DNA of 64,000 nt from Bifidobacterium polysaccharolyticum. GTDB taxonomy: Bacteria; Actinomycetota; Actinomycetes; Actinomycetales; Bifidobacteriaceae. A program made the translations under genes and the position numbers. Each line of letters opens with the position of its first letter. Within the stretch, counting starts at the first letter, position 1. The stretch is from assembly GCF_016101585.1 (NCBI RefSeq), contig NZ_JACFQG010000001.1, forward strand, positions 186,001 through 250,000, read 5' to 3'. Positions 34,680-48,346 of this stretch are shown one piece after another. The notes beneath the pieces were generated by a model. It was not told where the DNA came from and did not search any database. It was given only the letters and a program-made list of their open reading frames with translations.

Positions 34680-36473
34680 CTATTTATCATCTCTCGATAT
34701 TGCCTTGAAAAAAGGTGGAGCAGGAAGGCCGGCATCATTCATCAGTGGTGCCGGCCCCCATCCGTGCCAGGCGTAACGAATCCAACGCGGATTTCTGACA
34801 TTGTTCAGTGACAATATAATGATTCTGCAATCGTCTTGTCTGCCAACCGCTTGATGTAGATGTTCCAATGGATGGCAAGAAATCTTTCTTGAAGATAGCA
34901 TAATCTTGGCCGCTACTGGATAAAAGTGGCCATCTCGCCCTGCTACTTCAAAACCAGATTTCCCTGCTTCACTAAAATCAGTGGTATGAGCAATCTCTGC
35001 ATGCGGCAAACCTGGCATCTTCGCGCTGAAGTGCATGCCAGCAGCATAAACCATGGGCAGTGAAAGATGGACTGGGTCGATTTGACTTGGCGTGAGTGGA
35101 CTTGGTCCATTGATCGGCAGTGCATGTTGACCGTACACCCTATGAAGCACATGAACCGCCGAACGCTCACCTGGGGTGCGCTTGTCCTTCGGATGCAAGT
35201 TATGTTCTTCTCCGCAATCAATCAGACAAATTATGTACACATCACTCCTTGTCTGACTCGTTGCCCACTGTGCTTTTCTGATACGAGGCCAATCGGAGTC
35301 GGTTACCATGTCGTTTTCACCTTGTGAGGGAGACCACTGAGGCAATTGAACGACAAAAAAAGGCAGCTTTGTCTGCGCAACACCATCAGAGGCGTTTAGC
35401 ATATTATCCGGTAGCCGCCATAACGACCTCCACCGGTCTATAAGCAATCCAAGCAAAGTTTGGTAAGTTGAGCTAAACGGACCATCTTCTTCTCCTTGAT
35501 ACCATAGAATACCTGCTATAGCATAGGGCGCTATCCGTTCGAGCATAGAGGCGAAAGCACCCGTTGGACGATATTTAGAGTGCCGGGTAATCGGAGGCGG
35601 CCACGGGCATTGGCCGCATGCTGAGTTAATTTCTTCGTCAGATATCTCGGGATATGCTTGCCGCAGTTTCGATACCCTGTTGTTCCACGAATCAAAGCTT
35701 GATTGCCATGATTCTGCTTGGGCTTCCAGCTCTTCATCAGTGTGACCCGATACTGTCTTACTGAAACGATCCAGATAACCCTGTCCTTCCGGACAAGATT
35801 GCAATGTTTCTTGATCAAGCCAGACAGCTATTGATGTACCGCCTATATAGCAATCGATGATTCCCACTGCGGTCTTTGGAGAGAGATTCTTGCGAAGCTT
35901 ATGGGCAAAGTAGTAGGCCACTGCCGACATTTGTCCGCTTGTCTTCGGATCGCAGCAATTCCAGCGTGCATGAGCTTCTGCTTGCTTGTCTATACGACCA
36001 GTCTGAGGAACCTGGTAAAACCTCATCAATGGGTCTTGGCTTCCAGCCACAACAGTTGCGCCATCGGCGCTGTCCACTAAGTCCAATGCCATATTGCTTT
36101 GACCTGAACACATCCATACTTCACCAATCATCAGATTTTGCAGATTAACGCATTCATTTTTAGTGCGAACAGAAAGGCTGTATGGCCCCCCAGGTTGGCA
36201 TGGCGGAAGAACGCCAAGCCATTTTCCACTGTCGTCAACCTTACAAGTTGTGCTGATCGGTCCGGTCACTCGATGAGCATTAGTCGGGGTTAATTCAATG
36301 TGGACTATACCTTCCGGTTGAGACCAGCCAAAGATAGGGATTGGTTTGGAACTTTGCAGGACTGCACCATCAGCGAAGATGGCAGCTAGCTGTAATTTAT
36401 GATGGTCAAAGTCGGTAACAGTCTTTTTTCTTTTCTGCAAACCACTTGCATATTGGTAATCCTCGTCTGTCAT
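34680..36473 (-). CDS. Sialate O-acetylesterase-like SGNH carbohydrate acetylesterase
   Basis: About 597 residues from the ATG at 36473 (AGGAAAGG 5 nt upstream). Nucleophile motif GEVWMCSGQSNM (Ser126), then GILWYQGEEDG (about 322-332), and the acid/base pair in IDCGEEHNLHPKDKR (Asp419, His427). The C-terminal VRYAW-type ending is present as IRYAWHGWGPAPLMND. All fit the SASA/DUF303 acetylesterase group, which removes O-acetyl groups from sugars; despite the family name, sialic acid need not be the substrate. No signal peptide, so intracellular. It lies 14 bp after the CE2-like gene and probably shares its transcript. It likely deacetylates imported manno-oligosaccharides (inference from the locus). 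Confidence 0.82.
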   Translation of the reverse strand: MTDEDYQYASGLQKRKKTVTDFDHHKLQLAAIFADGAVLQSSKPIPIFGWSQPEGIVHIELTPTNAHRVTGPISTTCKVDDSGKWLGVLPPCQPGGPYSLSVRTKNECVNLQNLMIGEVWMCSGQSNMALDLVDSADGATVVAGSQDPLMRFYQVPQTGRIDKQAEAHARWNCCDPKTSGQMSAVAYYFAHKLRKNLSPKTAVGIIDCYIGGTSIAVWLDQETLQSCPEGQGYLDRFSKTVSGHTDEELEAQAESWQSSFDSWNNRVSKLRQAYPEISDEEINSACGQCPWPPPITRHSKYRPTGAFASMLERIAPYAIAGILWYQGEEDGPFSSTYQTLLGLLIDRWRSLWRLPDNMLNASDGVAQTKLPFFVVQLPQWSPSQGENDMVTDSDWPRIRKAQWATSQTRSDVYIICLIDCGEEHNLHPKDKRTPGERSAVHVLHRVYGQHALPINGPSPLTPSQIDPVHLSLPMVYAAGMHFSAKMPGLPHAEIAHTTDFSEAGKSGFEVAGRDGHFYPVAAKIMLSSRKISCHPLEHLHQAVGRQDDCRIIILSLNNVRNPRWIRYAWHGWGPAPLMNDAGLPAPPFFKAISRDDK

Positions 36474-36487
36474 CAGAACCTTTCCTG

Positions 36488-37642
36488 TCACCAAATCTCG
36501 CTACCTAGCGCACGAATGAAAGCAACAACTTCATCAGCCATTTCCTGCTGTTCGCTTATACGTGGATGGCCTCTCGTGGCAATGCCATTGCGGCGATATA
36601 CAAGATGGTGAATACAAGACCGGCCCAACTCTCGGCACACATCCTCAATGGCCCGGTCCCAATGTTCATCGTGGGCCAGAACGGAAGTAGCGGTTATGAT
36701 TTGTGCTTGAGGATAAGTCTCCATGAGAGTCTGAAGAAACTTTGCATAGCTCAGTCGCCAATGCTCAGCCTGCGAACCTGAGTAGTCGTGAGCCATGAAA
36801 TCCCTTGGATGCGCATCATTCTGTCCGAGGGCAACAATAACCACTTGCGGTTGGTATTGTGAAAAATCCCAGGTTTTGCAGGGACCTATAGACGAATTGT
36901 ATTCGATTTTATTCCAAATACTCTCCATACCTATGGGCCGTGGTTCCTGGAACCAGCCAAGACCGTCAAGCAGAGCGGCCCCGCCCTGTGAAACGTCATG
37001 GAGTTGCGCCCCCAGCGATCTTGCTGCAATAGCTGCAAAGGAGTACCAAGAATTACTATATGAACTAAGGTCTGCCGCTGGATCCTCACAGCTTGCATAC
37101 AAGCTGGCTTCATTGCGCTCTCCACAGGAAATGGAGTCTCCGAAGACCTCCATTCGTCGTTGTGATGGCTGTTCTCTATCGGGATACAGTTTGGCAGATT
37201 CTTCAAGCATTATGCCGGTTAACTTGAGATAATGCTGCCCATCCTGACGTTTGAATATTATTGCTTCATGCTCGATGTCAGGCAGATTGTCAGCTATAGT
37301 CACTTCTACCGAATATGGAGATACTGCTGAATCAGGCCACACAAATTCCTGATTCTTCGCCGGCGTGTTCCTTCGTGAAGAGCAGTGAACGAGGTCTATT
37401 CGATATTCAAATCCGTCTATAAATGCACCTAGACAGCTGGTTCCATATTGGCGTGCGTTTATTAGCCGGACACCCAGGTAATTTCCGGTGAATCTAAATC
37501 TCACCTGAGTATAGGGAAAGACCCATAATGGGCATTGATCGGTGTTCCAGTCCATCCTGCCCATGTACGTAAAAGCCTTGTTCGCTGGCTTTATGAGTCG
37601 ACGTGTTTTCGTCTCGTTTGGCTTCGCATAGCTGTCACTCAA
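36488..37642 (-). CDS. CE2-like carbohydrate acetylesterase (SGNH/GDSL)
   Basis: About 384 residues. An N-terminal jelly-roll-like region (FTYMGRMDWN, VRFRFTGNYLGVRL) precedes an SGNH hydrolase domain: block I VFGDSISCG (Ser about 170), block II SQGGAAL, block III VALGQNDAHP, and catalytic His in TRGHPRISEQ. This two-domain order is typical of family CE2. No Asp sits three residues before the His, so it may use a Ser-His dyad. No signal peptide. The start is uncertain: GTG at 37651, or TTG at 37642 with GAGAGG at proper spacing (used here). First gene of the minus-strand unit. Confidence 0.82.
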   Translation of the reverse strand: MSDSYAKPNETKTRRLIKPANKAFTYMGRMDWNTDQCPLWVFPYTQVRFRFTGNYLGVRLINARQYGTSCLGAFIDGFEYRIDLVHCSSRRNTPAKNQEFVWPDSAVSPYSVEVTIADNLPDIEHEAIIFKRQDGQHYLKLTGIMLEESAKLYPDREQPSQRRMEVFGDSISCGERNEASLYASCEDPAADLSSYSNSWYSFAAIAARSLGAQLHDVSQGGAALLDGLGWFQEPRPIGMESIWNKIEYNSSIGPCKTWDFSQYQPQVVIVALGQNDAHPRDFMAHDYSGSQAEHWRLSYAKFLQTLMETYPQAQIITATSVLAHDEHWDRAIEDVCRELGRSCIHHLVYRRNGIATRGHPRISEQQEMADEVVAFIRALGSEIW

Positions 37643-37749
37643 TGACGACACCTCTCATCGCGACACCATTCGGCGACAATAAATAGTATTCGTCGTGTTC
37701 ATGTCAAGTCAAATGGCATGCAGCATTACTGTTTGTAGTTATCAATCTC

Positions 37750-37778
37750 ATAGTAGCTGAACCGATTCATTAATGCAA
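37750..37778 (-). promoter_or_regulatory. Promoter of the acetylesterase unit with LacI-type operator in the spacer
   Basis: On the minus strand TTGCAT (37773-37778), a 17-nt spacer and TACTAT (37750-37755) form a plausible promoter about 100 nt upstream of the CE2 start. The operator TGAACCGATTCA (37758-37769) sits inside the spacer, where a bound repressor would block RNA polymerase. Confidence 0.6.
37758..37769. promoter_or_regulatory. LacI-family operator site 1
   Basis: TGAACCGATTCA, 10 of 12 positions symmetric around a CG centre, the usual LacI-family layout. The extended 14-mer CTGAACCGATTCAT is repeated exactly at the GH26 promoter (47056-47069), 9.3 kb away. Confidence 0.7.
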
Positions 37779-37911
37779 AAAAGAATGGCACGCCATCATG
37801 CTGCTTGCTTTTGAATGCTCGATATTAGAATAGATTTGCTCTTTCGACGACTGGCATTCATAGCTCGGCACGATGCTCTATATAATTTGCGAGCACATAA
37901 TATCCAAAATA

Positions 37912-37924
37912 TTAATCGGTTTAA
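37912..37924. promoter_or_regulatory. LacI-family operator site 2
   Basis: TTAATCGGTTTAA, matching the AAYCGRTT core of the other sites. Its centre lies about 22-23 bp from site 3, roughly two helical turns, which would suit side-by-side or cooperative binding upstream of the transporter promoter. Confidence 0.6.
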
Positions 37925-37934
37925 AGGAATAAAC

Positions 37935-37946
37935 TTAACCGGTTGA
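37935..37946. promoter_or_regulatory. LacI-family operator site 3 overlapping the -35 box
   Basis: TTAACCGGTTGA contains the perfect palindrome AACCGGTT and overlaps the first bases of the TTGACA -35 element at 37943-37948. This is the position expected for direct repression of the transporter operon. Confidence 0.7.
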
Positions 37947-37971
37947 CAAAACGTGCATAGGTTGCTATTTT
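37943..37971 (+). promoter_or_regulatory. Promoter of the sugar transporter operon
   Basis: Consensus TTGACA (37943-37948), a 17-nt spacer and TATTTT (37966-37971). Transcription would start near 37978, giving a leader of about 135 nt. The leader begins with an imperfect inverted repeat at 37979-38014 (ATCGAATCCATTC versus GAATGAATCGAT). The rest of the 470-bp divergent gap is A+T-rich and holds no gene. Confidence 0.75.
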
Positions 37972-38112
37972 GTCAAGTATCGAATCCATTCATGTGATTC
38001 AGGAATGAATCGATGCTGAACTATTTCCAATAATGCCAATGAATGTGCTTTATCGGAACCGCTCAATATGTTGCATAAATGAAGATCAATGGATTTCAAC
38101 GAGGAGATTTCA

Positions 38113-39516
38113 ATGAAGAATGCACGCAAATTGATTGCAGTAGCTTTGGCTGGCTTATGTTTTTGGCCCTTGTCTGGATGTGGAGGAAACGGAGCTGCTG
38201 ATTCAAATGGACAAGCGACAAAACTGAATTATCCATCTATCAAACTCGGTACGACCGGAAAGGATATTCACACCAAAATAAAGCTTTTTAATCACAAGAC
38301 CGACATGTCCGTTGATACTTATCCTGGCAAAAACTGGAAGCAGTATGTCGCTGATTTCAACAAGCTGTATCCAGGCATCTCCATTGAGATAGAAACCGAT
38401 ACCAATTATGCCGGCGATGCCTTAACGAGGCTGCAGGGCAAGGATTGGGGCGACATGATGATGATACCTGCGGTGGATCGTTCTGATCTCAGTACATATT
38501 TTTTGCCTTTTGGCACCAAAGAGGAAATGTCAAAGGTGATTCGTTGGTCCAATGCTTCTGAATATGGCGGAAAAGTATATGGCGTGCCGAGCAACGGAAA
38601 CGGTCTGGGGATCGTCTACAACAAACGAATCTTCAAGGAGGCCGGGATTAATGAGAATCCGAAAACGCCTCAGGAATTCATACAGGCCTTGAAAGCCATA
38701 AAAGAAAAGACAAAAGCTATACCGCTATATACAAATTATGCAGCAGGTTGGACAATGGCAGCTTGGGACGGATATATTGGCGTCAACGCCACCGGGGATG
38801 GGCGTTATATGAACCAAAAACTGTTGCACACAAAAAATCCTTTCTCTGATCCAGGAGATGACACCCACGCTTACAATGTCTACAAGATTCTCTATGACGC
38901 TGTTTCAGACGGTTTGACTGAAGACGATTATTCGACGACTGATTGGGAGTCAAGCAAAGCCAGAATCAACCGAGGTGAGATAGCCACAATGGTTCTAGGT
39001 GCCTGGGCAGTCTCACAATGCAAAAATGCTGCAGACCATCCGGACGATATCGGTTATATGCCATTCCCGATTAGTGTCAAAAACAAGCAATACACGGTTT
39101 CTGCTGGGGATTATGCATATGGCATAAATAGTCATGTGTCAAAGACTCGTCAAGAGGCGTCAATGATCTTTATCAAATGGATGACGGAGCGTTCCGGTTT
39201 CGCCAAGAATGAGGGAGGTATACCCACAGCGCAGTCTGACAAGAGCATGCCTGACGCCTACAAGGAATTCGCTGATGTTCATTTTGTCGAGGACCAGCCA
39301 TCCGTCAAAGGTGAAGAAGATCTGTTTAATACTTTGAATTCTGACTCGGAGCTTGCAGTAAATTCAGGCGGCAATGCGCGAATTCAAGCCATTGTAGAGC
39401 ATGCTTCCAAGCATGACAAACCATACAATGACCTGGTCAAGGATTGGAATTCCAAGTGGAATGATGCTCTGAAAACCGAGGGCATCGAAGCGCAGTATGA
39501 CACAGCCAGTAAGTAA
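38113..39516 (+). CDS. Sugar ABC transporter solute-binding lipoprotein (CUT1 family)
   Basis: About 467 residues. It starts at ATG 38113 with GAGGAG 6 nt upstream, not at the ATG 24 bp earlier. The signal peptide MKNARKLIAVALAGLCFWPL ends in lipobox LSGC (Cys23), so the protein is a membrane-anchored lipoprotein. The mature part is a type I extracellular binding protein (GVPSNGNGLGIVYNKRIFKEAG, ALKAIKEKTKAIPLY, INRGEIATMVLGAWAV, EASMIFIKWMTE). It captures the oligosaccharide outside the cell and delivers it to the two permeases that follow. The substrate, inferred from neighbours, is beta-manno-oligosaccharide. Confidence 0.9.
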   Translation: MKNARKLIAVALAGLCFWPLSGCGGNGAADSNGQATKLNYPSIKLGTTGKDIHTKIKLFNHKTDMSVDTYPGKNWKQYVADFNKLYPGISIEIETDTNYAGDALTRLQGKDWGDMMMIPAVDRSDLSTYFLPFGTKEEMSKVIRWSNASEYGGKVYGVPSNGNGLGIVYNKRIFKEAGINENPKTPQEFIQALKAIKEKTKAIPLYTNYAAGWTMAAWDGYIGVNATGDGRYMNQKLLHTKNPFSDPGDDTHAYNVYKILYDAVSDGLTEDDYSTTDWESSKARINRGEIATMVLGAWAVSQCKNAADHPDDIGYMPFPISVKNKQYTVSAGDYAYGINSHVSKTRQEASMIFIKWMTERSGFAKNEGGIPTAQSDKSMPDAYKEFADVHFVEDQPSVKGEEDLFNTLNSDSELAVNSGGNARIQAIVEHASKHDKPYNDLVKDWNSKWNDALKTEGIEAQYDTASK

Positions 39517-39534
39517 ATATCCAAGCTGATCAAG

Positions 39535-39567
39535 AGGCTGCCGACGGCGCTTTACCGTCGGCAGCCT
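39535..39567 (+). promoter_or_regulatory. Intercistronic hairpin between binding protein and permease genes
   Basis: A perfect 13-bp stem (AGGCTGCCGACGG/CCGTCGGCAGCCT) with a 7-nt loop and no following T-run. Hairpins in this position commonly protect the binding-protein mRNA from 3' decay or cause partial termination, so that the binding protein outnumbers the permeases. Confidence 0.75.
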
Positions 39568-39591
39568 GGACAAACCAAGGAAGAAGGAGTT

Positions 39592-40650
39592 ATGACAGCA
39601 ACAACGGTTGAGTCTTCGCTGCCTCCTGATGTTCCGGACAACAAGCGACCCTTTGATTGGAGAAAGGGCATCATTATTGTGGCCTTTTGTTTCATTCCTT
39701 TGACGCTTCTTGTTGTTTTTACTTATGTTCCGTTTGGGCAAATGGTTGGATTCAGCTTCTACCGCATGAAATATATCGGTGTTCCCCATTGGGTAGGTTT
39801 GCAGAATTATCGCCAGATTGTGACAAGGCCGGACATACTGCCCTCTCTGAAACTTAGTTTATATTACATGGCGGGGTCAGTACTTCATATTTCGTTGGCG
39901 TTGTATCTTGCAACCATACTGAGTTTCCGGGTAAGATGCGGCAATCTTTTTAAGGGTTTGTTCTTCTTTCCCTATCTCATCAATGGCATAGCTGTCGGTT
40001 TTATATTTAAATTCTTCTATACCAGGGGTTTCATATTTGACAGCGTTCTCCAATGGTGCGGTTTCAGTTTAAACAGCCTGCCGTATTGGCTGAAGGATCA
40101 GTCCATCAACAACTGGTCATTGGTGGGCGCCTCCGTCTGGCGATATATGGGCCAAACCATGATTCTATTCATAGGAGCCATCATGTCTATCGATCAATCA
40201 CTCTATGAAGCTGCCGAAATAGATGGGGCCAATAAGTTCCAGCAATTTCTACATATAATTCTTCCGAGCATCAAAACGATCCTGGTTCTGAATGTCGTGT
40301 TGTCGGTTACTGGAGCCTTAAGCGTTTTTGAGATTCCATTTGTAATAACTACCGGGGCCAACGGCACAGGAAGTTATTTCGTTCTTATGGACCGCATAGC
40401 ACATACAAATCAAAAAGTAGGTTTGGCTTCGGCTATGGCTGTAGTCTTGTTGATTGTTATTTTGATATTCGCACTTTTGCAGCAAATTCTGTTCAAATTC
40501 CTTTTCCGAAATCAGGACGATGGAGTTAAAGCAGCAAAAAGGCGTGACCGTCGTGCCAAGCGTCAAAGGAATCGCATCGCTGCGGGTAAGGCACCGCTAC
40601 TTGCAAATGGTAGACGACAGAAGGCTTACAGCATGGAGCGGGGGCAGTGA
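39592..40650 (+). CDS. Sugar ABC transporter permease 1 (LplB/MalF-like)
   Basis: 352 residues. Six hydrophobic segments (GIIIVAFCFIPLTLLVVFTY first), with the coupling EAA loop SLYEAAEIDGANKFQQFLHI facing the ATPase. It forms the translocation pore with the next permease. GAAGGAG is upstream of the ATG at 39592. The basic C-terminal tail (KRRDRRAKRQRN) is cytoplasmic. No ATPase gene accompanies it. Confidence 0.9.
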   Translation: MTATTVESSLPPDVPDNKRPFDWRKGIIIVAFCFIPLTLLVVFTYVPFGQMVGFSFYRMKYIGVPHWVGLQNYRQIVTRPDILPSLKLSLYYMAGSVLHISLALYLATILSFRVRCGNLFKGLFFFPYLINGIAVGFIFKFFYTRGFIFDSVLQWCGFSLNSLPYWLKDQSINNWSLVGASVWRYMGQTMILFIGAIMSIDQSLYEAAEIDGANKFQQFLHIILPSIKTILVLNVVLSVTGALSVFEIPFVITTGANGTGSYFVLMDRIAHTNQKVGLASAMAVVLLIVILIFALLQQILFKFLFRNQDDGVKAAKRRDRRAKRQRNRIAAGKAPLLANGRRQKAYSMERGQ

Positions 40651-41543
40651 TGCAAGCGAAAAAGATGACAGCGACAATCGATAGTTTAGGTCGATTCCGA
40701 GCGAATCGATTGCCTCTTAAGGATATCATTTTCAACATACTCAAATATGCAGTACTGATATTCCTGGCTTTCTGGTTTATGCTGCCCTTGATAAGCTGTG
40801 TGATCACTGCGGCCAAAACTGATAAGGAATACGCCACAACCACAGTTACGCAGTTGCCAAAGAACTGGTTCAATATACAAAGCTATATCAATGCTTTTAC
40901 CCTCTCCAATATGGGTAACGCCTTCAAGAACTCGATTATTATTCTTGTAGTCGTTTTAGTCTGTACTACCTTAATTGGCACGCAGCTTGCCTACGTTCTA
41001 AGCAGATTCACGTTTCCGGGCAATACTCTTATCAGAGGGTTGTTTACTGTTGCTGCTCTCTTGCCCGGCATTGCAATGCAAGTTGCCTTGTATAAAATGA
41101 TGGTTGGCATGCATGCGGTCAATTCGCTGTGGGGATACATTATCATGTCGATGGGCACTGATGTGATTTCCATATATGTTTTCATACAGTATTTTGAGAA
41201 TATTCCAATTTCCTTGGATGAATCCGCTATAGTGGATGGTGCTTCATATTTTACTGTCTACTCAAAGATCTTGTTGCCGTTGCTTAAGCCAGCAATCGTC
41301 ACCTGCGTCATTCTGAAAGGTGTCGGTGTTTATAACGAGTATTATGCCGCAAACCTGTATCTGCAAAGTGCGAATTTGAAGACCGTTGCTATAGCGCTGT
41401 ATACTTTCACCGGCCCGCAGGGAAGCAAATACAATCTTATTTGCGCGGGAGTGATTCTGACTCTGCTTCCGATGCTCGTGCTGTTCCTGCTTTTCCAAAA
41501 GCAGATATACACCGGTATAGCAGCCGGAGCAGTAAAGGAGTAA
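40650..41543 (+). CDS. Sugar ABC transporter permease 2 (MalG-like)
   Basis: About 297 residues. The ATG at 40650 overlaps the previous stop (TGATG), implying coupled translation. Six membrane helices begin with YAVLIFLAFWFMLPLISCVI. The EAA-type loop is PISLDESAIVDGASYFTVY, followed by ILLPLLKPAIVT, typical of MalG-type partners. The permease must borrow a shared ATPase encoded elsewhere, as is usual for CUT1 systems in bifidobacteria (family knowledge). Confidence 0.9.
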   Translation: MQAKKMTATIDSLGRFRANRLPLKDIIFNILKYAVLIFLAFWFMLPLISCVITAAKTDKEYATTTVTQLPKNWFNIQSYINAFTLSNMGNAFKNSIIILVVVLVCTTLIGTQLAYVLSRFTFPGNTLIRGLFTVAALLPGIAMQVALYKMMVGMHAVNSLWGYIIMSMGTDVISIYVFIQYFENIPISLDESAIVDGASYFTVYSKILLPLLKPAIVTCVILKGVGVYNEYYAANLYLQSANLKTVAIALYTFTGPQGSKYNLICAGVILTLLPMLVLFLLFQKQIYTGIAAGAVKE

Positions 41544-41666
41544 ATCACTCTTCCTAACAAAGCAAAGGTGTTGATGCAGAGGCTACAAGATCAATCTACT
41601 TGTGTCTCGGTTAAGAGAATTTCATTGGACAGGTATAAACCGATCAGCTGTGGAGAAGGAATAAGA

Positions 41667-44378
41667 ATGACGTCTGGACAGTTGCACTCAACAAGTGATT
41701 CTGTGTGTTTCCTATCACTCAACAAAGAATGGAATGTGCGGGCTCTCAACCCTGAAAAGGCACCAACCAATCTTCGAGAAAGTCTGCGTGAGGGCTTTCC
41801 TGCTGAAGTACCGGGCGAAGTTACCCTGGACCTTCTGAGGGCAGGGCTGATATCCGATCCATTTGATGGCGACAATGAGCGGATGCAACAGTGGATCGGC
41901 GACATTGATTGGCAATACACATGTCATTTTGCATGGCATGAAGATGATCAGCAATGTCATGATTTGGTGGCTTGCGGGTTAGACACCGTGGCCTTGGTGC
42001 AACTCAATGGCCGTGTGCTGGGAACCGGCAAGAATTTTTATTGCATGTACCGGTGGAATATTGACGGTTTTCTGCAACAAGGCATAAATACGTTGGTTGT
42101 TACTCTGAATTCACCTGTTCGAGAATCTGAAAAGTGCGAAAAGCTTATTGGGTATTATCCGCATACTGAGCATCATGCATTCAACCAACTGCGCAAGCCG
42201 GCCTACCAATTTGGATGGGATTGGGGCATTGATGTGGCCGGAGTTGGCATATGGAGGCCTATTGGCATTGATTCTTGGTCACAGACAAGAATCCGAGCCG
42301 TGCGACCGTTCATTCAGGTGCAGGATGATGGCACAGGCGTTGCTGAGGTTCACGTCGATCTCGACTGGGCTCGACTTTCTACGTCTCTGCCAGGCAAACA
42401 ACCCCCTTCGGAGATTGCTCCGGTGGAATATCAACTGACGGTTGAAGGCCATGGGACGAGAAAGGCTGTGGAGGGAACCATTGCTTATGGAGTCTCTGAA
42501 CTGGTTTCGACTGTGAAGGTTCCTGAAGCTATGCTGTGGTGGCCACGCGGGTACGGGGAACAGCCCTTATACGATTTGTCTATGCGTGTCGGAACGGCCG
42601 AATGGAAGGGACGGATTGGCTTTCGTACGGTAACGGTGGATACCAGGGCAGATAAGGATGGACGTCCTTTTCGTCTATATATCAACGGGCTTCCAATTCA
42701 TGCAAGAGGGTTCAATTGGGTGCCTCTGGATGCGTTCATTTCCAGGGCGGATTCAGCGACGTATCGAGCTCGATTCCAAGATCTTGTCGAATCAAATGCC
42801 AACATGGTCAGAGCATGGGGAGGTGGCATTTACGAAACAGATGAATTTTATGATCTAGCTGATGAGTATGGGATCATGGTCTGGCAGGATTTCGCTTTTG
42901 CATGCGCCGCATATCCAGAAACAGCCGAAATGCGCCAAGAAGTCGAGTCTGAGGCAATACAGCAGATCAGTAGATTATGCCCGCATCCGAGTCTGGTTGT
43001 ATGGAATGGTTCGAATGAAAATTATGTTGCTTACGCACAGTGGGACGGTTTTAAGCAGGCGTTGAACGACGATCAAGAACCGAATAACGCTTACGGTTAT
43101 GGCGAAAGGGGATGGGGAGATTATTATTATTCTTTGCTATTGCCCAAATTGCTGAAGCGACTTGATAATACTCGTGTTTATATACCAAGTTCTCCCATGA
43201 GTTTCACTCCATTCGTGGACGCTAATGCCGATACGGATGGCACCATGCACATCTGGGATGTATGGAACAATGCTGATTACCATCGATACCGCGCCTATCG
43301 CCCTCGTTTCGCTGACGAATTTGGATACCAAGCCCCTCCAGCCTGGAGCACTTTGATGAGAGTGATCCACGATCCTCAGCCTGGACCGTCTTCTCCTCAG
43401 ATGTTGGTTCATCAAAAGGCTTCGTCAGGCAATGAAAAACTGGCAAAAGGCATGCGGTCCCATTTGACTCCAGGACAATTTGAAGACATCGCTTACGGTC
43501 TGGATGGTTCACGAAATTGGTTAATCCCCAGTGATCGTTGGCGTGATTTGGAGGATTGGCACTGGGCCTGCCAGCTGCAACAAGGGCAGGCAATTCGCTT
43601 CGGGCTGGAACACATGAGATCATTGGAACCGCTCAACGCTGGAACATTGATTTGGCAGCTCAACGATGATTGGCCGGTTATTTCCTGGTCGGCGATAGAC
43701 TATGACGGGCACAAAAAGCCGCTTTGGTTTGTGGCACGCACATGCTTCGCGCCCTGCTTTGCAACAATTCAGCCATGGACTTCCAATCAGAGGATACAGG
43801 ATCGGAGCTGGGAGGGTTCCCAGGTGGATCCAGACAGCCTCGCTCTTGTGCTAATCAACGACAGCATCTGTGACCAGCATGTGACTTGGAAGGTTGAACG
43901 ACGTACCTTAGGGGGAGCTGTATTAGCTCAGCAGGTTTTCCACGTCGATATAGAGCGGCTGAGTAAAAGGACTCTCTTACTGAATGACGATGTGGCAGCC
44001 TGCTCCGATCCATATAATGAGCTGCTTGTGGCTACGCCGAATGGGCAAGCAATCAGTAATCCGACATTTGCCAGAACCGTTTACGACTTTGCTGAAGTGA
44101 TCGATCAACATTTGAATCCCAATCCTCTATCAGTACAAGCAAAAACGTGTACAGATGGGTATCTTTTGGAAATTACTGCCAATGCGTACGCTCGCGATAT
44201 CTTCTGCATGGTTGACAAAATTGATTCTTCAGCCTCCATCGATGGCGGAATGGTTTCTCTGCTTCCGGGAGAAAGTCTGCGTTGGCATATAGCTTCGCGA
44301 AAGAAGGTGGATCCCCAGGGTTTTGCCCAAAAACGTGTGTTGCGTTGCGCCAATGATTTGCGAGAATGCCATCAGTGA
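41667..44378 (+). CDS. GH2 beta-mannosidase
   Basis: About 903 residues from ATG 41667 (GGAGAAGGA 6 nt upstream). An N-terminal sugar-binding beta-sandwich (SLNKEWNVRALN, VPGEVTLDLL, KPAYQFGWDWGIDVAGVGIW) precedes an immunoglobulin-like domain and the barrel (RGFNWVPLDAFI, MVRAWGGGIYETDEFYDLAD). Acid/base Glu451 lies in LVVWNGSNENY and nucleophile Glu551 in PRFADEFGYQ. The WDWG and AWGGGIYE blocks are characteristic of beta-mannosidases rather than beta-galactosidases in GH2. No signal peptide, so it should release mannose from the non-reducing end of imported oligosaccharides in the cytoplasm. Last structural gene of the transporter operon. Confidence 0.9.
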   Translation: MTSGQLHSTSDSVCFLSLNKEWNVRALNPEKAPTNLRESLREGFPAEVPGEVTLDLLRAGLISDPFDGDNERMQQWIGDIDWQYTCHFAWHEDDQQCHDLVACGLDTVALVQLNGRVLGTGKNFYCMYRWNIDGFLQQGINTLVVTLNSPVRESEKCEKLIGYYPHTEHHAFNQLRKPAYQFGWDWGIDVAGVGIWRPIGIDSWSQTRIRAVRPFIQVQDDGTGVAEVHVDLDWARLSTSLPGKQPPSEIAPVEYQLTVEGHGTRKAVEGTIAYGVSELVSTVKVPEAMLWWPRGYGEQPLYDLSMRVGTAEWKGRIGFRTVTVDTRADKDGRPFRLYINGLPIHARGFNWVPLDAFISRADSATYRARFQDLVESNANMVRAWGGGIYETDEFYDLADEYGIMVWQDFAFACAAYPETAEMRQEVESEAIQQISRLCPHPSLVVWNGSNENYVAYAQWDGFKQALNDDQEPNNAYGYGERGWGDYYYSLLLPKLLKRLDNTRVYIPSSPMSFTPFVDANADTDGTMHIWDVWNNADYHRYRAYRPRFADEFGYQAPPAWSTLMRVIHDPQPGPSSPQMLVHQKASSGNEKLAKGMRSHLTPGQFEDIAYGLDGSRNWLIPSDRWRDLEDWHWACQLQQGQAIRFGLEHMRSLEPLNAGTLIWQLNDDWPVISWSAIDYDGHKKPLWFVARTCFAPCFATIQPWTSNQRIQDRSWEGSQVDPDSLALVLINDSICDQHVTWKVERRTLGGAVLAQQVFHVDIERLSKRTLLLNDDVAACSDPYNELLVATPNGQAISNPTFARTVYDFAEVIDQHLNPNPLSVQAKTCTDGYLLEITANAYARDIFCMVDKIDSSASIDGGMVSLLPGESLRWHIASRKKVDPQGFAQKRVLRCANDLRECHQ

Positions 44379-44474
44379 ATCTTAGGCTACTACAATAGCT
44401 TGGTACGTGCTGTAAAGTGCACGGGTCTGCATTCGCCCTCGTTTTCAAGCTATGCATTGACGGGAGAACAGAGC

Positions 44475-45506
44475 ATGGTATTGCCGAAGTCGAAAGTGAC
44501 TATTTCTGATGTGGCCCAAGAGGCTGGTGTCTCCAACAGTGCTGTCTCTTATGCTCTTAATGGTAAACCTGGTGTTTCAAGTAAAACACGGCGAAAGGTA
44601 TTGGACGTAGCTGAACATCTTGGATGGCGGCCTAATAGCGCGGCCAAGGCGCTTTCCGATGCCAAGACCCACAATGTGGGACTGGTGCTTACGTACGACA
44701 CCGGTATCCTGTCAGTCGAGTCCTACACGATGGAGCTTATTGCCGGGTTGACGACAGAGCTGGAGAAAAAGGGTTATTCGCTATTATTGCGATCCTCGCA
44801 AAGTCGGCAACAGGAGGTGGCAATTCTCAAAGAATGGATCAGTGCCGGTGCAGTTGACGCCACGTTGATCATGAATCTAGAGCTGGGCGATCCACGGATG
44901 GCTCTATTCAAACGTCACCCTGATATGCCTGTGCTGGCTTTGTGCGATGTCTCAATTGCTGATGGGTTGCCGTCTTTGTCTGATAATGCTCAGAGCGCGG
45001 CTCATCTTATTGTTGATTATTTGCATGAAATAGGTCATCACAAGATTGCAAGAATAGCTGGACCCGAGACTTTGGAGCATACTTTCGTCAGAGATAATGC
45101 CTTTGTTGAGGAAGTGGCGGAATTAGGCTTACAGTACAGTTGTTTTCACACTGATTATTCGCCTGACGAAGCACGAGCAAGTACGAAACGATTTTTGCAA
45201 TTGCCTGAAAGACCAACGGCTATTGTTTATGACAGCGATGTGATGGCGCTCTCTTCGCTCAAGACGATTGCGGACATGGGGCTGCGGATTCCTGAGGACC
45301 TCTCGGTTATTTCGTGGAACAATTCTTTTATGTGCGAGGTCGGACGGCCAAGTATAACAGCATTGGACCGTGATGTTGTGGCGAGAGGTCGGAAAGCAGC
45401 TCAAATGATGCTGGCCTTGATTGCAGGAGACAGGGTCAGTTCTCAAAGCGAGGATGACAGCAGTCTCATTTTCCGCCAGTCGAGTGGTCCCCTGGAAACC
45501 CATTGA
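44475..45506 (+). CDS. LacI-family transcriptional regulator of the mannan locus
   Basis: 343 residues from ATG 44475 (GGGAGAA upstream). HTH residues 8-60 read VTISDVAQEAGVSNSAVSYA, then LNGKPGVSSKTRRKVL and the hinge helix WRPNSAAKALSD. A periplasmic-binding-protein-like effector domain follows (GLVLTYDTGIL, HEIGHHKIARIAGPE, PTAIVYDSDVMALSSLK, VISWNNSFM). It most likely represses the locus by binding the AAYCGRTT operators at 37758, 37912, 37935 and 47057, and is released by an imported or processed sugar. It lies 96 bp after the beta-mannosidase, so it may be read from the same transcript. No operator was found in front of it. Confidence 0.9.
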   Translation: MVLPKSKVTISDVAQEAGVSNSAVSYALNGKPGVSSKTRRKVLDVAEHLGWRPNSAAKALSDAKTHNVGLVLTYDTGILSVESYTMELIAGLTTELEKKGYSLLLRSSQSRQQEVAILKEWISAGAVDATLIMNLELGDPRMALFKRHPDMPVLALCDVSIADGLPSLSDNAQSAAHLIVDYLHEIGHHKIARIAGPETLEHTFVRDNAFVEEVAELGLQYSCFHTDYSPDEARASTKRFLQLPERPTAIVYDSDVMALSSLKTIADMGLRIPEDLSVISWNNSFMCEVGRPSITALDRDVVARGRKAAQMMLALIAGDRVSSQSEDDSSLIFRQSSGPLETH

Positions 45507-45543
45507 CTCTTTAGACACGAAACTCGTCATTCAATCACCTGCT

Positions 45544-46179
45544 CTATGATCGCGGTGCAGGTGGAGGAGCAATCCGACGCAAAAATGCATTCGCGATATA
45601 TGCCGTGACACCCGTTCCCAAAATGCTCCATATAAGCAAAATGGCAGGAATCGAGGCCGGTGTGACGATTACGAGTATCAGGGGCAATAGCTTTAAAGCG
45701 GCTATGGTGCATGCATATAGGGGATGCAGCAGGGCTAGCCGAGCTGAGGCCGTTATCAGTTGCGCAGCCTTTGCATCGCTGCGAGCAGCGAGCGGGAATA
45801 CAAATGAACCAGCTGCTATTAATACAAAAGAAGTTGTTGCTACTATCCCGTAAGCCAGTGAAGACAAATCAGAGCCCATCATCCCGTTGGAAAAATACCA
45901 AAGGTCAAAGCCAGCCAAAGAGACTAGAGATGCCATCACGATTGTCAATTTGAATGACCGTAGTATATTTTTAAGCAGTCCACGGAAGAAGTGTCTGATC
46001 ATATGGCTTCCGCGGCCAGTTTGAAGTTGTTCAATCTGAATGTACAAGGCAGTGTCGGCTGCACCTATGGTAACCAGGGGAATACAGGATATAATCCAAC
46101 AAATACTGAGTACTGATAAGTCTCCGATGGCTGACATGACGGTATTATATGGGCTATCCTGCCGAAACATAGATGTCAT
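45544..46179 (-). CDS. DUF624/YesL-like membrane protein
   Basis: About 211 residues (ATG 46179, GGAAGG 7 nt upstream). Five to six hydrophobic helices. The N-terminal pattern NTVMSAIGDLSVLSICWIIS followed by CIPLVTIGAADTALY is the signature of the DUF624 (YesL) family. Members occur next to sugar ABC transporter and glycosidase genes in Firmicutes and Actinobacteria, but their biochemical role is not established. It starts 4 bp after the preceding minus-strand gene and forms a two-gene unit with it. Confidence 0.83.
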   Translation of the reverse strand: MTSMFRQDSPYNTVMSAIGDLSVLSICWIISCIPLVTIGAADTALYIQIEQLQTGRGSHMIRHFFRGLLKNILRSFKLTIVMASLVSLAGFDLWYFSNGMMGSDLSSLAYGIVATTSFVLIAAGSFVFPLAARSDAKAAQLITASARLALLHPLYACTIAALKLLPLILVIVTPASIPAILLIWSILGTGVTAYIANAFLRRIAPPPAPRS

Positions 46180-46183
46180 CAGC

Positions 46184-46954
46184 TCACCTTCCACACGCAA
46201 ACTTCGTGAATCGTACAGCCTCCTGCATGTGAGGACTGTTTACTGCCAATCCAATTACCGCTTGATCAGTCGATGCGCTCTTGGCCTTTGCTAATCCATG
46301 TTTGCCACTCTCTTTGTTCTGGTGTGGCCGCCAGCGCTGATTTTGTACGGAATCACACATTAATCCGTAAGGCCTTATCGGGCTTTTACCTATTGAGGAT
46401 CCTGCTTTGTCGTCTTGGTTGTCGTCTGCTGGACCGGGTAACAGCACTTGTTCACCAAACTGCTTATCCGGAAAAAGGCGGCTCAAATCAGTCATATATC
46501 CATAGCTGGTCAACCGAGTAAAGGTGCTCTTAGGTGCGATGATCACATCGACTGTACCGGCGCTAAGCATTGTCTGGAGTTTAGGAAGACCGTCACGTGA
46601 ACAATCAAAACCGTCGTCGACAACCAAACCGGAATTATCATCTGCCTTCATATGCAGGGCAATTGCCGCTTGCTTGTTCATTTCACCTGCTTGTTCACTT
46701 CCTATAGGATGATCGACAAGAGCCACGAAAAGCCTGGGACCGGTAGTAGGGTTCATAATGTGCAAGGTTAGCCAGATTAACAGGCAGCAAATGGTGATAA
46801 TCGTGATGATTGAAACCAAAAAATGATCGATGAAATAGGACCAGCGTTTTTTCCCAGAAAGCGATCGCCAAATGGCCAACCGTCCTCCAGTTCTCACCGG
46901 AGACGATGCCAGGACATCTACTGCTTCGGGGCGATGCTCGTTCGGCATTGTCAA
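46184..46954 (-). CDS. Single-pass membrane protein with extracytoplasmic domain, unknown function, partner of DUF624 protein
   Basis: 256 residues. A cytoplasmic N-terminus of about 42 residues is followed by one strong membrane helix (about 43-66, VSIITIITICCLLIWLTLHI) and an outside domain of about 190 residues. Residues 124-163 (LPKLQTMLSAGTVDVIIAPK, then FTRLTSYGYMTDLSRLF) resemble the lobe of a substrate-binding protein, suggesting a tethered ligand-sensing or docking domain; this is inference. TTG at 46954 has AAAGGAG 7 nt upstream and is the likely start; ATG two codons later is the alternative. It is transcribed away from the GH26 gene and toward the DUF624 gene. I do not recognise a named family. 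Confidence 0.72.
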   Translation of the reverse strand: MTMPNEHRPEAVDVLASSPVRTGGRLAIWRSLSGKKRWSYFIDHFLVSIITIITICCLLIWLTLHIMNPTTGPRLFVALVDHPIGSEQAGEMNKQAAIALHMKADDNSGLVVDDGFDCSRDGLPKLQTMLSAGTVDVIIAPKSTFTRLTSYGYMTDLSRLFPDKQFGEQVLLPGPADDNQDDKAGSSIGKSPIRPYGLMCDSVQNQRWRPHQNKESGKHGLAKAKSASTDQAVIGLAVNSPHMQEAVRFTKFACGR

Positions 46955-47027
46955 GGCGATTCTCCTTTCTGCAGCTTCTTCGCAGCCACGGCAAACTCAG
47001 TGATAAGACAGCCGAATGGGCAAGTCA

Positions 47028-47056
47028 TTGGTCATGATGCTATATTCCAGTATAAC
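47028..47056 (+). promoter_or_regulatory. Promoter of the GH26 mannanase gene
   Basis: TTGGTC (47028-47033), a 17-nt spacer and TATAAC (47051-47056, 5 of 6 to consensus). The LacI-type operator follows immediately, over the expected start site. No equally clear promoter was found for the divergent minus-strand pair. Confidence 0.65.
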
Positions 47057-47068
47057 TGAACCGATTCA
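47057..47068. promoter_or_regulatory. LacI-family operator site 4
   Basis: TGAACCGATTCA, identical to site 1 including one flanking base on each side (CTGAACCGATTCAT). It lies just downstream of the GH26 -10 box, about where transcription would begin. It may also affect the divergent minus-strand pair. Confidence 0.7.
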
Positions 47069-47176
47069 TATACGCGACTTTGCCATACATAGCTGCTTTT
47101 TGCTGGCATGGCCTTAGTCACGGCATCGTTTCAGTGGTTCTGGTCGATAAAGCAACTGCCAGGAGAGAGGAGAGAC

Positions 47177-48346
47177 ATGCATCGTATAGAATCACCCGTC
47201 GATAGTCACCCAACAGACCAACTACTAAGTTTATACTCGCATTTGAGGGGGTTGACCGGGAAGAAAACAATGTTCGGTCATCAAGATACAACACTATGCA
47301 GACTCATGCACGAATGCGACAGTGATGTTGTGACTCTTACAGGAGCATACCCAGCCGTTTGGGGATTCGATTTGGGGCGTATTGAATTGGGCTGGAAAAA
47401 GAATATTGATGATGTTTCTTTTGATCAAATTCGTCAACAGGTCTTGCGCGCACATGATATTGGCGCAATCCCCACCCTCACGTGGCATTCGGTAAATCCA
47501 ATCACCAGTGGTGGATACGGCAGCAATATGGCTCCAGGCTCCGTTCGTGCGGTTCTGCCGGGAGGGGATCGCCACGGGCGCTTTCTTGACTGGCTTGACC
47601 GTGTGGCTATAGTGCTCAGCTCTTTGACTGATGAAGATAACTTACCGATTCCAGTGATTTTTAGACCTTTTCATGAGCACAATGGCACCTGGTTCTGGTG
47701 GTCACTTGGTTCCCCCATAGAAGCAATTGATACTTCAGAAGATGAGTTCAGGCAATTATGGCGCATGAGTGTTGATTATTTAAGAAATAGCTGCGGTATT
47801 CACCATGTCCTTTATGCCTATTCTCCGGACCGCAGCAGAATAGACCTAACCGATGAAACTACTATGACAGGTGGATATCTATATGGGTATCCAGGAGACG
47901 ACTATGTCGATGTGCTCGGAATCGACGATTATTGGGACATGGATCAGCAACCTTTAGACAAAAGTCCATCAAAGCAACATAAGGATCTTATTACTATGCT
48001 CACCCTGGTCGGATATCTCGCCGAAGAGCGGGGAAAGCTGGCAGCTGCTACGGAAATCGGTTCGCCAGGAGCCTTCGCCTCAAGACTCAACAATGGAAGA
48101 GACGGGGAAAAAGTATGCGTTCCTCGTCCTTGGACAGGCTATTTGCTTTCTGCTTTGGAAGCGAACCAGTTCACTACTCGAATGCTATGGTGCCTCCCAT
48201 GGCGTAATTCCTTGGAAGCGGAGGGAACAGGCGCTTATGGAACCCCTTCTGCTGATTCTCCCTACGCACAAGATTTTATTGATTTTGCACAAAACAAGCG
48301 CATCGTTCTTATTAAAAAGTTAGCAAAATCGCCAGTTGACGAATAA
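47177..48346 (+). CDS. GH26 beta-mannanase, intracellular
   Basis: About 389 residues from ATG 47177 (AGGAGAGAGGAGAG upstream). GH26 blocks: TMFGHQDTTLCRL, PAVWGFDLGRIELG, acid/base Glu167 in IFRPFHEHNGTWFWW, the GYPGDDYVDVLGIDDYWD block, and probable nucleophile Glu293 in AATEIGSPGAF. There is no signal peptide, anchor or carbohydrate-binding module, so it works in the cytoplasm on imported oligosaccharides, perhaps releasing mannobiose for the GH2 beta-mannosidase. GH26 also contains a few other beta-glycanases, but the neighbouring beta-mannosidase supports mannan. It has its own promoter with operator site 4. Rightmost gene of the A+T-rich locus. Confidence 0.87.
   Translation: MHRIESPVDSHPTDQLLSLYSHLRGLTGKKTMFGHQDTTLCRLMHECDSDVVTLTGAYPAVWGFDLGRIELGWKKNIDDVSFDQIRQQVLRAHDIGAIPTLTWHSVNPITSGGYGSNMAPGSVRAVLPGGDRHGRFLDWLDRVAIVLSSLTDEDNLPIPVIFRPFHEHNGTWFWWSLGSPIEAIDTSEDEFRQLWRMSVDYLRNSCGIHHVLYAYSPDRSRIDLTDETTMTGGYLYGYPGDDYVDVLGIDDYWDMDQQPLDKSPSKQHKDLITMLTLVGYLAEERGKLAAATEIGSPGAFASRLNNGRDGEKVCVPRPWTGYLLSALEANQFTTRMLWCLPWRNSLEAEGTGAYGTPSADSPYAQDFIDFAQNKRIVLIKKLAKSPVDE

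Follow-up and report, generated by a model that had tools for sequence, protein, structure and literature searches.

Gene content of the island and its putative operators

The window (the whole stretch of DNA analysed, 64 kb of a 2.23-Mb Bifidobacteriaceae genome; G000:C5:186001-250000) contains an island at 34680-48346 with a GC content of 44-50%, against 61-63% in the flanking regions, one with metE/MTHFR and the opposite one with glnE. Those relatives of the locus that have names are Bifidobacterium species. The island was probably acquired. A low-GC island with the esterase pair was present in three members of the window's genus. The features assigned to the island, which include two adjacent esterase genes and genes for an importer, mannan hydrolases and a regulator, are listed in Table 1.

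Table 1. Features of the island, with positions in the window
Feature	Position	Strand	Basis and remarks
SASA-type (CE20-like) acetylesterase, without ancillary domain	34680..36473	-	Pfam, motifs, fold match; complete
CE2-SASA gap, 14 bp, with ribosome-binding site AGGAAAGG for the SASA gene	36474..36487	-	Sequence
CE2 acetylesterase	36488..37651	-	Pfam, conserved residues, fold match; 387 aa, complete
Probable LacI operator TGAACCGATTCA, upstream of CE2-SASA	37758..37769		Genome search
Operator-like AATCGGTT, divergent promoter region	37914..37921		Sequence
Operator-like AACCGGTT, overlapping the -35 box of the binding-protein (SBP) promoter (TTGACA 37943, 17 nt, TATTTT)	37937..37944		Sequence
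ABC importer solute-binding lipoprotein	38089..39516	+	Homology
ABC permease A	39592..40650	+	Pfam
ABC permease B	40647..41543	+	Pfam
GH2 beta-mannosidase	41568..44378	+	Best solved relatives are beta-mannosidases
LacI-family regulator	44400..45506	+	Pfam
DUF624 membrane protein	45544..46200	-	Antisense inside the cassette; kept with the cassette in several genera
Membrane protein without Pfam family	46184..46954	-	Antisense inside the cassette; kept with the cassette in several genera
Second exact copy of TGAACCGATTCA, upstream of GH26	47057..47068		Genome search
GH26, closest to CjMan26C	47177..48346	+	Start moved to ATG behind GGAGAGAGGAGAGAC

The exact 12-bp sequence TGAACCGATTCA was found in two copies in the genome and nowhere else, and the operator sites were conserved in two congeners. 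The first-pass annotation had placed both esterase genes under one operator; the sites point instead to one probable LacI regulon, with TGAACCGATTCA at 37758 and 47057 and AACCGGTT at 37937. A second GH2 beta-mannosidase paralog (58% identity) was located elsewhere in the genome, at G000:C7:416245-419025. The genome also encodes two further GDSL proteins, and no CE7-type enzyme was found in it over the cut-off.

No hydrophobic N-terminal signal was seen by inspection in either esterase, and by eye no signal peptide was evident in the GH26 protein. An assignment of both esterases as intracellular-type acetylesterases, within an island for the import and degradation of mannan oligosaccharides, is supported by these sequence features.

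Two esterases of separate families

Both esterase genes were intact and their products showed no detectable sequence relatedness (BLASTP E 1.1; profile-profile probability 0.3%), which bears out the original description of two unrelated acetylesterases in tandem, 14 bp apart. In fold searches each protein matched a separate structural family. The end first quoted for the pair, 37642, falls a little before the CE2 start, which is at 37651. The SASA open reading frame read from a TTG covers 36494-34680 (-), and a start at this TTG would give a 7 bp overlap with CE2; the start is likely to be the ATG at 36473, behind AGGAAAGG and 14 bp past the CE2 stop at 36488. SASA residue numbers given here are counted from the TTG open reading frame (P0001).

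The CE2 protein matched the Pfam families CE2_N (3.4e-14) and Lipase_GDSL_2 (7.4e-08), with a CE2_N jelly roll at the N terminus followed by the SGNH domain, the domain order by which CE2 is recognized. S173 of GDSI, N278 of GQND and H362 of GHPRI were invariant in 19 homologs, as was G224, and blocks I, II, III and V are consequently Ser, Gly, Asn and His, as required of a CE2 member. The homolog alignment placed Thr359 at His-3, a position where CE2 enzymes often lack Asp, and catalysis is therefore probably by a Ser-His dyad. The best matches of the AlphaFold model (pLDDT 71) were the CE2 structures 2wao, 2wab and 2waa. The CE2 member of the pair is ordinary for its family, which includes enzymes active on xylan too (PMC9487903).

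The SASA protein is CE20-like and has no ancillary domain

The second protein matched the Pfam family SASA (1.2e-12). Residues Q132-S133 of GQSN, Q333-G334-E335 of YQGE and N432/H434 of NxH were invariant in 18 homologs, and so, in the same alignment, was GGT at 218-220. Block I (GQSNM), block III (QGE) and block V (NxH) are those of CE20. A fold search with the predicted structure (pLDDT 86.6) returned 7kmm, 9ega and 9h4u as top matches, followed by animal SIAE, and in the model N- and C-terminal beta-sandwiches flank the SGNH core, as CE20 membership demands. The beta-sandwich ancillary domain inserted in CE20 enzymes, an optional criterion since eukaryotic members are without it, is absent from the SASA protein, which has a short segment of constant length (68 residues, counted from 244 to 311; the part with the CPWPPP loop is listed as 244-301) in its place. 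Helices were predicted at 235-248, 253-280 and 286-293, followed by a loop that reads CPWPPP in all aligned members from Bifidobacteriaceae. In mannan-linked relatives the loop is PW followed by a Pro-rich stretch, and in a side group without mannan markers it is RYPGP. The PWPPP loop presumably lines the active site. On sequence, motifs and predicted fold, the SASA protein is CE20-like, minus the ancillary domain.

In CE20 the catalytic His is paired with Asp or Asn at His-2 via a coordinated water, which is also in contact with the ancillary domain, and Asn at this position is an allowed variant (PMC12313940). The view that His431 (His-3) marks a lost catalytic Asp was rejected, as the third residue of CE20 lies at His-2 (PMC12313940), here the invariant Asn432. 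At residue 431 of P0001 (window 35202-35204) Asp predominates across the clade (DNIHP); the window's genus has His there (HNLHP), and a few other members have Asn. Assignment to CE17, defined by an SGNH domain with a C-terminal CBM35, was also rejected, there being no sequence match to 6hfz and no CE17 enzyme among the fold matches listed. CE6, defined by a single SASA domain without flanking sandwiches, was rejected for a protein of ~600 aa with flanking domains and a weak fold match to 1zmb and 2apj.

CE20-like paralogs with a longer inserted domain were observed in Bifidobacteriaceae (L161-L168), namely in G135, G132 and G143 of the window's genus and in G074, G020, G033 and G117. In the tree the insert-bearing bifidobacterial paralogs formed a clade separate from the SASA clade.

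Conservation of the pair in Bifidobacteriaceae

A CE2 homolog was present in 50 of 189 Bifidobacteriaceae genomes, and in 45 of these 50 it was adjoined by a SASA homolog. The pairing is conserved far beyond chance, the co-occurrence p-values being descriptive only, as they ignore shared ancestry. Three arrangements were found among the 45 pairs: CE2 followed by SASA (36), convergent genes (7) and the reverse order (2). Adjacency has thus been kept through rearrangement, which argues for a functional link between the two enzymes.

Neighbours were counted from homology searches, as the view by longest open reading frame gave spurious antisense frames in regions of high GC. An ortholog of the GH2 gene lay within 25 kb of 35 of the 42 pairs tested and an ortholog of the binding-protein gene within 25 kb of 25 of the 42; 16 genomes had a GH26 gene no more than 35 kb from the SASA gene. 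The divergent layout, with the esterases facing away from the importer and GH2 genes, recurs in other genera. Mannan as the substrate is well supported by this gene context.

In two genomes of the window's genus (L174 and L175) the mannan cassette was present and both esterases were absent, and the pair therefore behaves as an optional module. Beside the binding-protein gene of these two loci an AraC-like regulator, a second GH2-like gene and an isomerase-like gene were noted by eye. Three genomes carried a C-terminal remnant of CE2 beside an intact SASA gene (G032:C1:90179-90334, G054:C1:126230-126612 and G074:C1:101436-101816). In G054 and G074 a C-terminal GH2 remnant directly followed that of CE2, as if one deletion had taken the importer and most of CE2 and GH2. 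As SASA survives beside such remnants in G032, G054 and G074, it may serve some purpose where the mannan cassette is missing.

SASA relatives outside the family

Outside Bifidobacteriaceae, the SASA relatives with the highest scores grouped with the bifidobacterial clade in the tree (37 rows, SH-aLRT 95) and were encoded in mannan loci: with GH130_2, mannobiose-epimerase-like, GH130_1 and PMM genes and a related importer in Anaeromicropila populeti (L063); with GH130_2, GH36 and CE2 in a rumen Eubacterium (L071); with GH1, an importer and GH113 in Clostridium akagii (L067); with GH36 and GH113 on a Spirochaetaceae contig (L065); and with GH130_1/GH130_2 in a Clostridia MAG (L073). No mannan marker lay in the available sequence around 11 of the 16 non-family rows of the group, partly owing to short contigs, and a GH130, GH113 or GH26 marker was found near none of 59 other, remoter non-family homologs. 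Because the mannan-linked rows outside Bifidobacteriaceae are not one clade in the tree, we do not propose that the mannan role arose once.

The proposal in the first-pass annotation that the SASA protein may be an uncharacterized mannan esterase is well backed by these independent loci of Clostridia and Spirochaetes. For CE6, the CAZy family taking in many SASA proteins (PMC9487903), an enzyme is reported that deacetylates galactoglucomannan and prefers 2-O positions (PMC10492685, after Mai-Gisondi 2017); activity of SASA-type enzymes on mannan would thus have a precedent.

The same neighbourhoods bear on two other functions. The Pfam name would make the SASA protein a sialate 9-O-acetylesterase unrelated to mannan, and animal SIAE have the same fold and are also without the ancillary domain. 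We rejected this reading as very improbable by context, as the gene lies among mannan genes in several phyla, no sialic-acid genes were seen in the island, and the family label spans the plant-glycan esterases of CE6 and CE20 (PMC9487903). The pair might otherwise serve another acetylated hemicellulose, xylan or xyloglucan, that enters through the same importer or a different one, with the mannan neighbourhood being secondary; xyloglucan or xylan is the substrate of characterized CE20 enzymes (PMC8245568, PMC12313940), and a distant CE2 and SASA pair lies with GH10 in Salinimicrobium (L115). However, mannan genes are the neighbours in Bifidobacteriaceae and in the closest relatives, and the island in the window showed no gene specific to xylan, which makes this alternative improbable. 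A further distant CE2 and SASA neighbourhood in Flavobacteriaceae (L136) lies before GH3, and the pairing of the two families may be wider than mannan.

A proposed route for acetylated manno-oligosaccharides

Gene context and protein families make it very probable that the two enzymes deacetylate fragments of plant mannan within the cell. Acetylated (gluco/galacto)manno-oligosaccharides that other organisms set free would be bound and imported by the ABC transporter and deacetylated in the cytoplasm, by CE2 through its Ser-His dyad and by the SASA enzyme through a CE20-like Ser-His pair with Asn at His-2 and Gln in the oxyanion hole, as the conserved residues suggest. Deacetylation would let GH26 and GH2 cut the backbone to mannose. 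The shared sites suggest that the LacI protein keeps the importer, esterase and GH26 genes under joint repression, and that an oligosaccharide releases it.

In such a route CE2 would take 3-, 4- and 6-O-acetyls and SASA the axial 2-O-acetyl of mannose, filling the slot of CE17 in Bacillota and of CE25 in Bacteroides. This division is plausible by analogy only, drawn from the parallel pairs CE2/CE17 and CE7/CE25 and from the reported 2-O preference of one CE6 enzyme as cited above. RiCE2 and FpCE2 remove 3-, 4- and 6-O-acetyls from mannan (PMC8262883); counting against the division, the CE20 enzyme XacXaeA did not favour any position when acting on acetylated mono- and disaccharides (PMC8245568). 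On balance, we consider it fairly probable that the pair supplies the deacetylation step of an intracellular beta-manno-oligosaccharide pathway, with CE2 on 3-, 4- and 6-O and SASA on 2-O as the likeliest split.

XacXaeA is equally an argument that both esterases act on acetylated manno-oligosaccharides at broad, overlapping positions, the gain being speed and tolerance of dense acetylation or side chains, not strict regiospecificity. BcCE7 and BcCE25 partly overlap (PMC13276840), CE2-only loci exist, and some mannan loci (L063, L067 and G094) have SASA but no CE2, from which SASA may be broad rather than 2-O-specific. Against overlap, the strong joint retention of CE2 and SASA suggests non-redundant tasks, and the CE2/CE17 pair is strictly divided (PMC8262883); we judge overlapping action to be rather unlikely.

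If the positional split is followed further, the SASA clade, with its fixed-length helical segment and PW-P loop, could have been recruited, independently of CE17 and CE25, as a third type of 2-O-acetyl-mannose esterase, spread across Bifidobacteriaceae, Clostridia and Spirochaetes, in which the PWPPP loop replaces the CE20 ancillary domain as specificity element. This extension is tentative, and we hold it to be possible rather than probable.

Comparison with known systems and significance

That esterase pairs can divide 2-O from 3-, 4- and 6-O acetyls, as was put forward at the outset, is correct and is an established mannan strategy, hence not new (PMC8262883, PMC13276840). RiCE2 and RiCE17 of Roseburia intestinalis and FpCE2 and FpCE17 of Faecalibacterium prausnitzii are, like the window pair, two intracellular SGNH esterases, one of them CE2, in a mannan locus with LacI and an ABC importer, and each pair jointly removes all acetyls (PMC8262883, PMC6385246). 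The second enzyme there is CE17, with a C-terminal CBM35, whereas in the window it is the CE20-like SASA protein, and those loci are phosphorolytic (GH130) whereas the window is hydrolytic (GH2/GH26). BcCE7 and BcCE25 of Bacteroides cellulosilyticus form a complementary beta-mannan pair with one enzyme specialized for the axial 2-O-acetyl, but neither belongs to the esterase families of the window and the mannan locus itself lists only CE7 (PMC13276840).

The SASA protein shares flanking beta-sandwiches, an SGNH core and the GQSNM, QGE and D/NxH motifs with the CE20 enzymes XacXaeA, Fl8CE20_II and PpCE20_II (7KMM, 9H4U, 9EGA), which it matched best both in sequence and in fold. It differs from them in having the fixed-length helical stretch and PWPPP loop where they have the inserted domain, and in a context of mannan rather than xyloglucan, xylan or pectin. 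An intracellular CE20 acetylesterase whose gene adjoins that of another esterase, in an operon with an importer, is also known from Ruminiclostridium cellulolyticum (XuaJ), but in an arabinoxylan system, with a feruloyl esterase as partner and with the inserted domain present (PMC11127375).

The island, with two esterases co-encoded with a mannan importer and hydrolases, has the gene content of a two-esterase mannan deacetylation system. Two complementary mannan esterases are of a known kind; the SASA-type second enzyme is what differs. A review and papers of 2025-2026 on mannan esterases name CE2, CE7, CE17 and CE25, plus some activity in CE1, CE6 and CE16, and an ancillary-less CE20-like enzyme for mannan is not named in them. 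CE17 is said to be described from Bacillota only.

These data provide an activity hypothesis for a widespread group of proteins named after sialic acid. Should the SASA enzyme take the 2-O role, the axial 2-O problem would have been solved by a third SGNH family, and this would explain how acetylated glucomannans might be used by bifidobacteria in the absence of CE17. With cassettes that carry the pair and cassettes that lack it in one genus, the gene would also be a genomic marker for acetylated glucomannan use.
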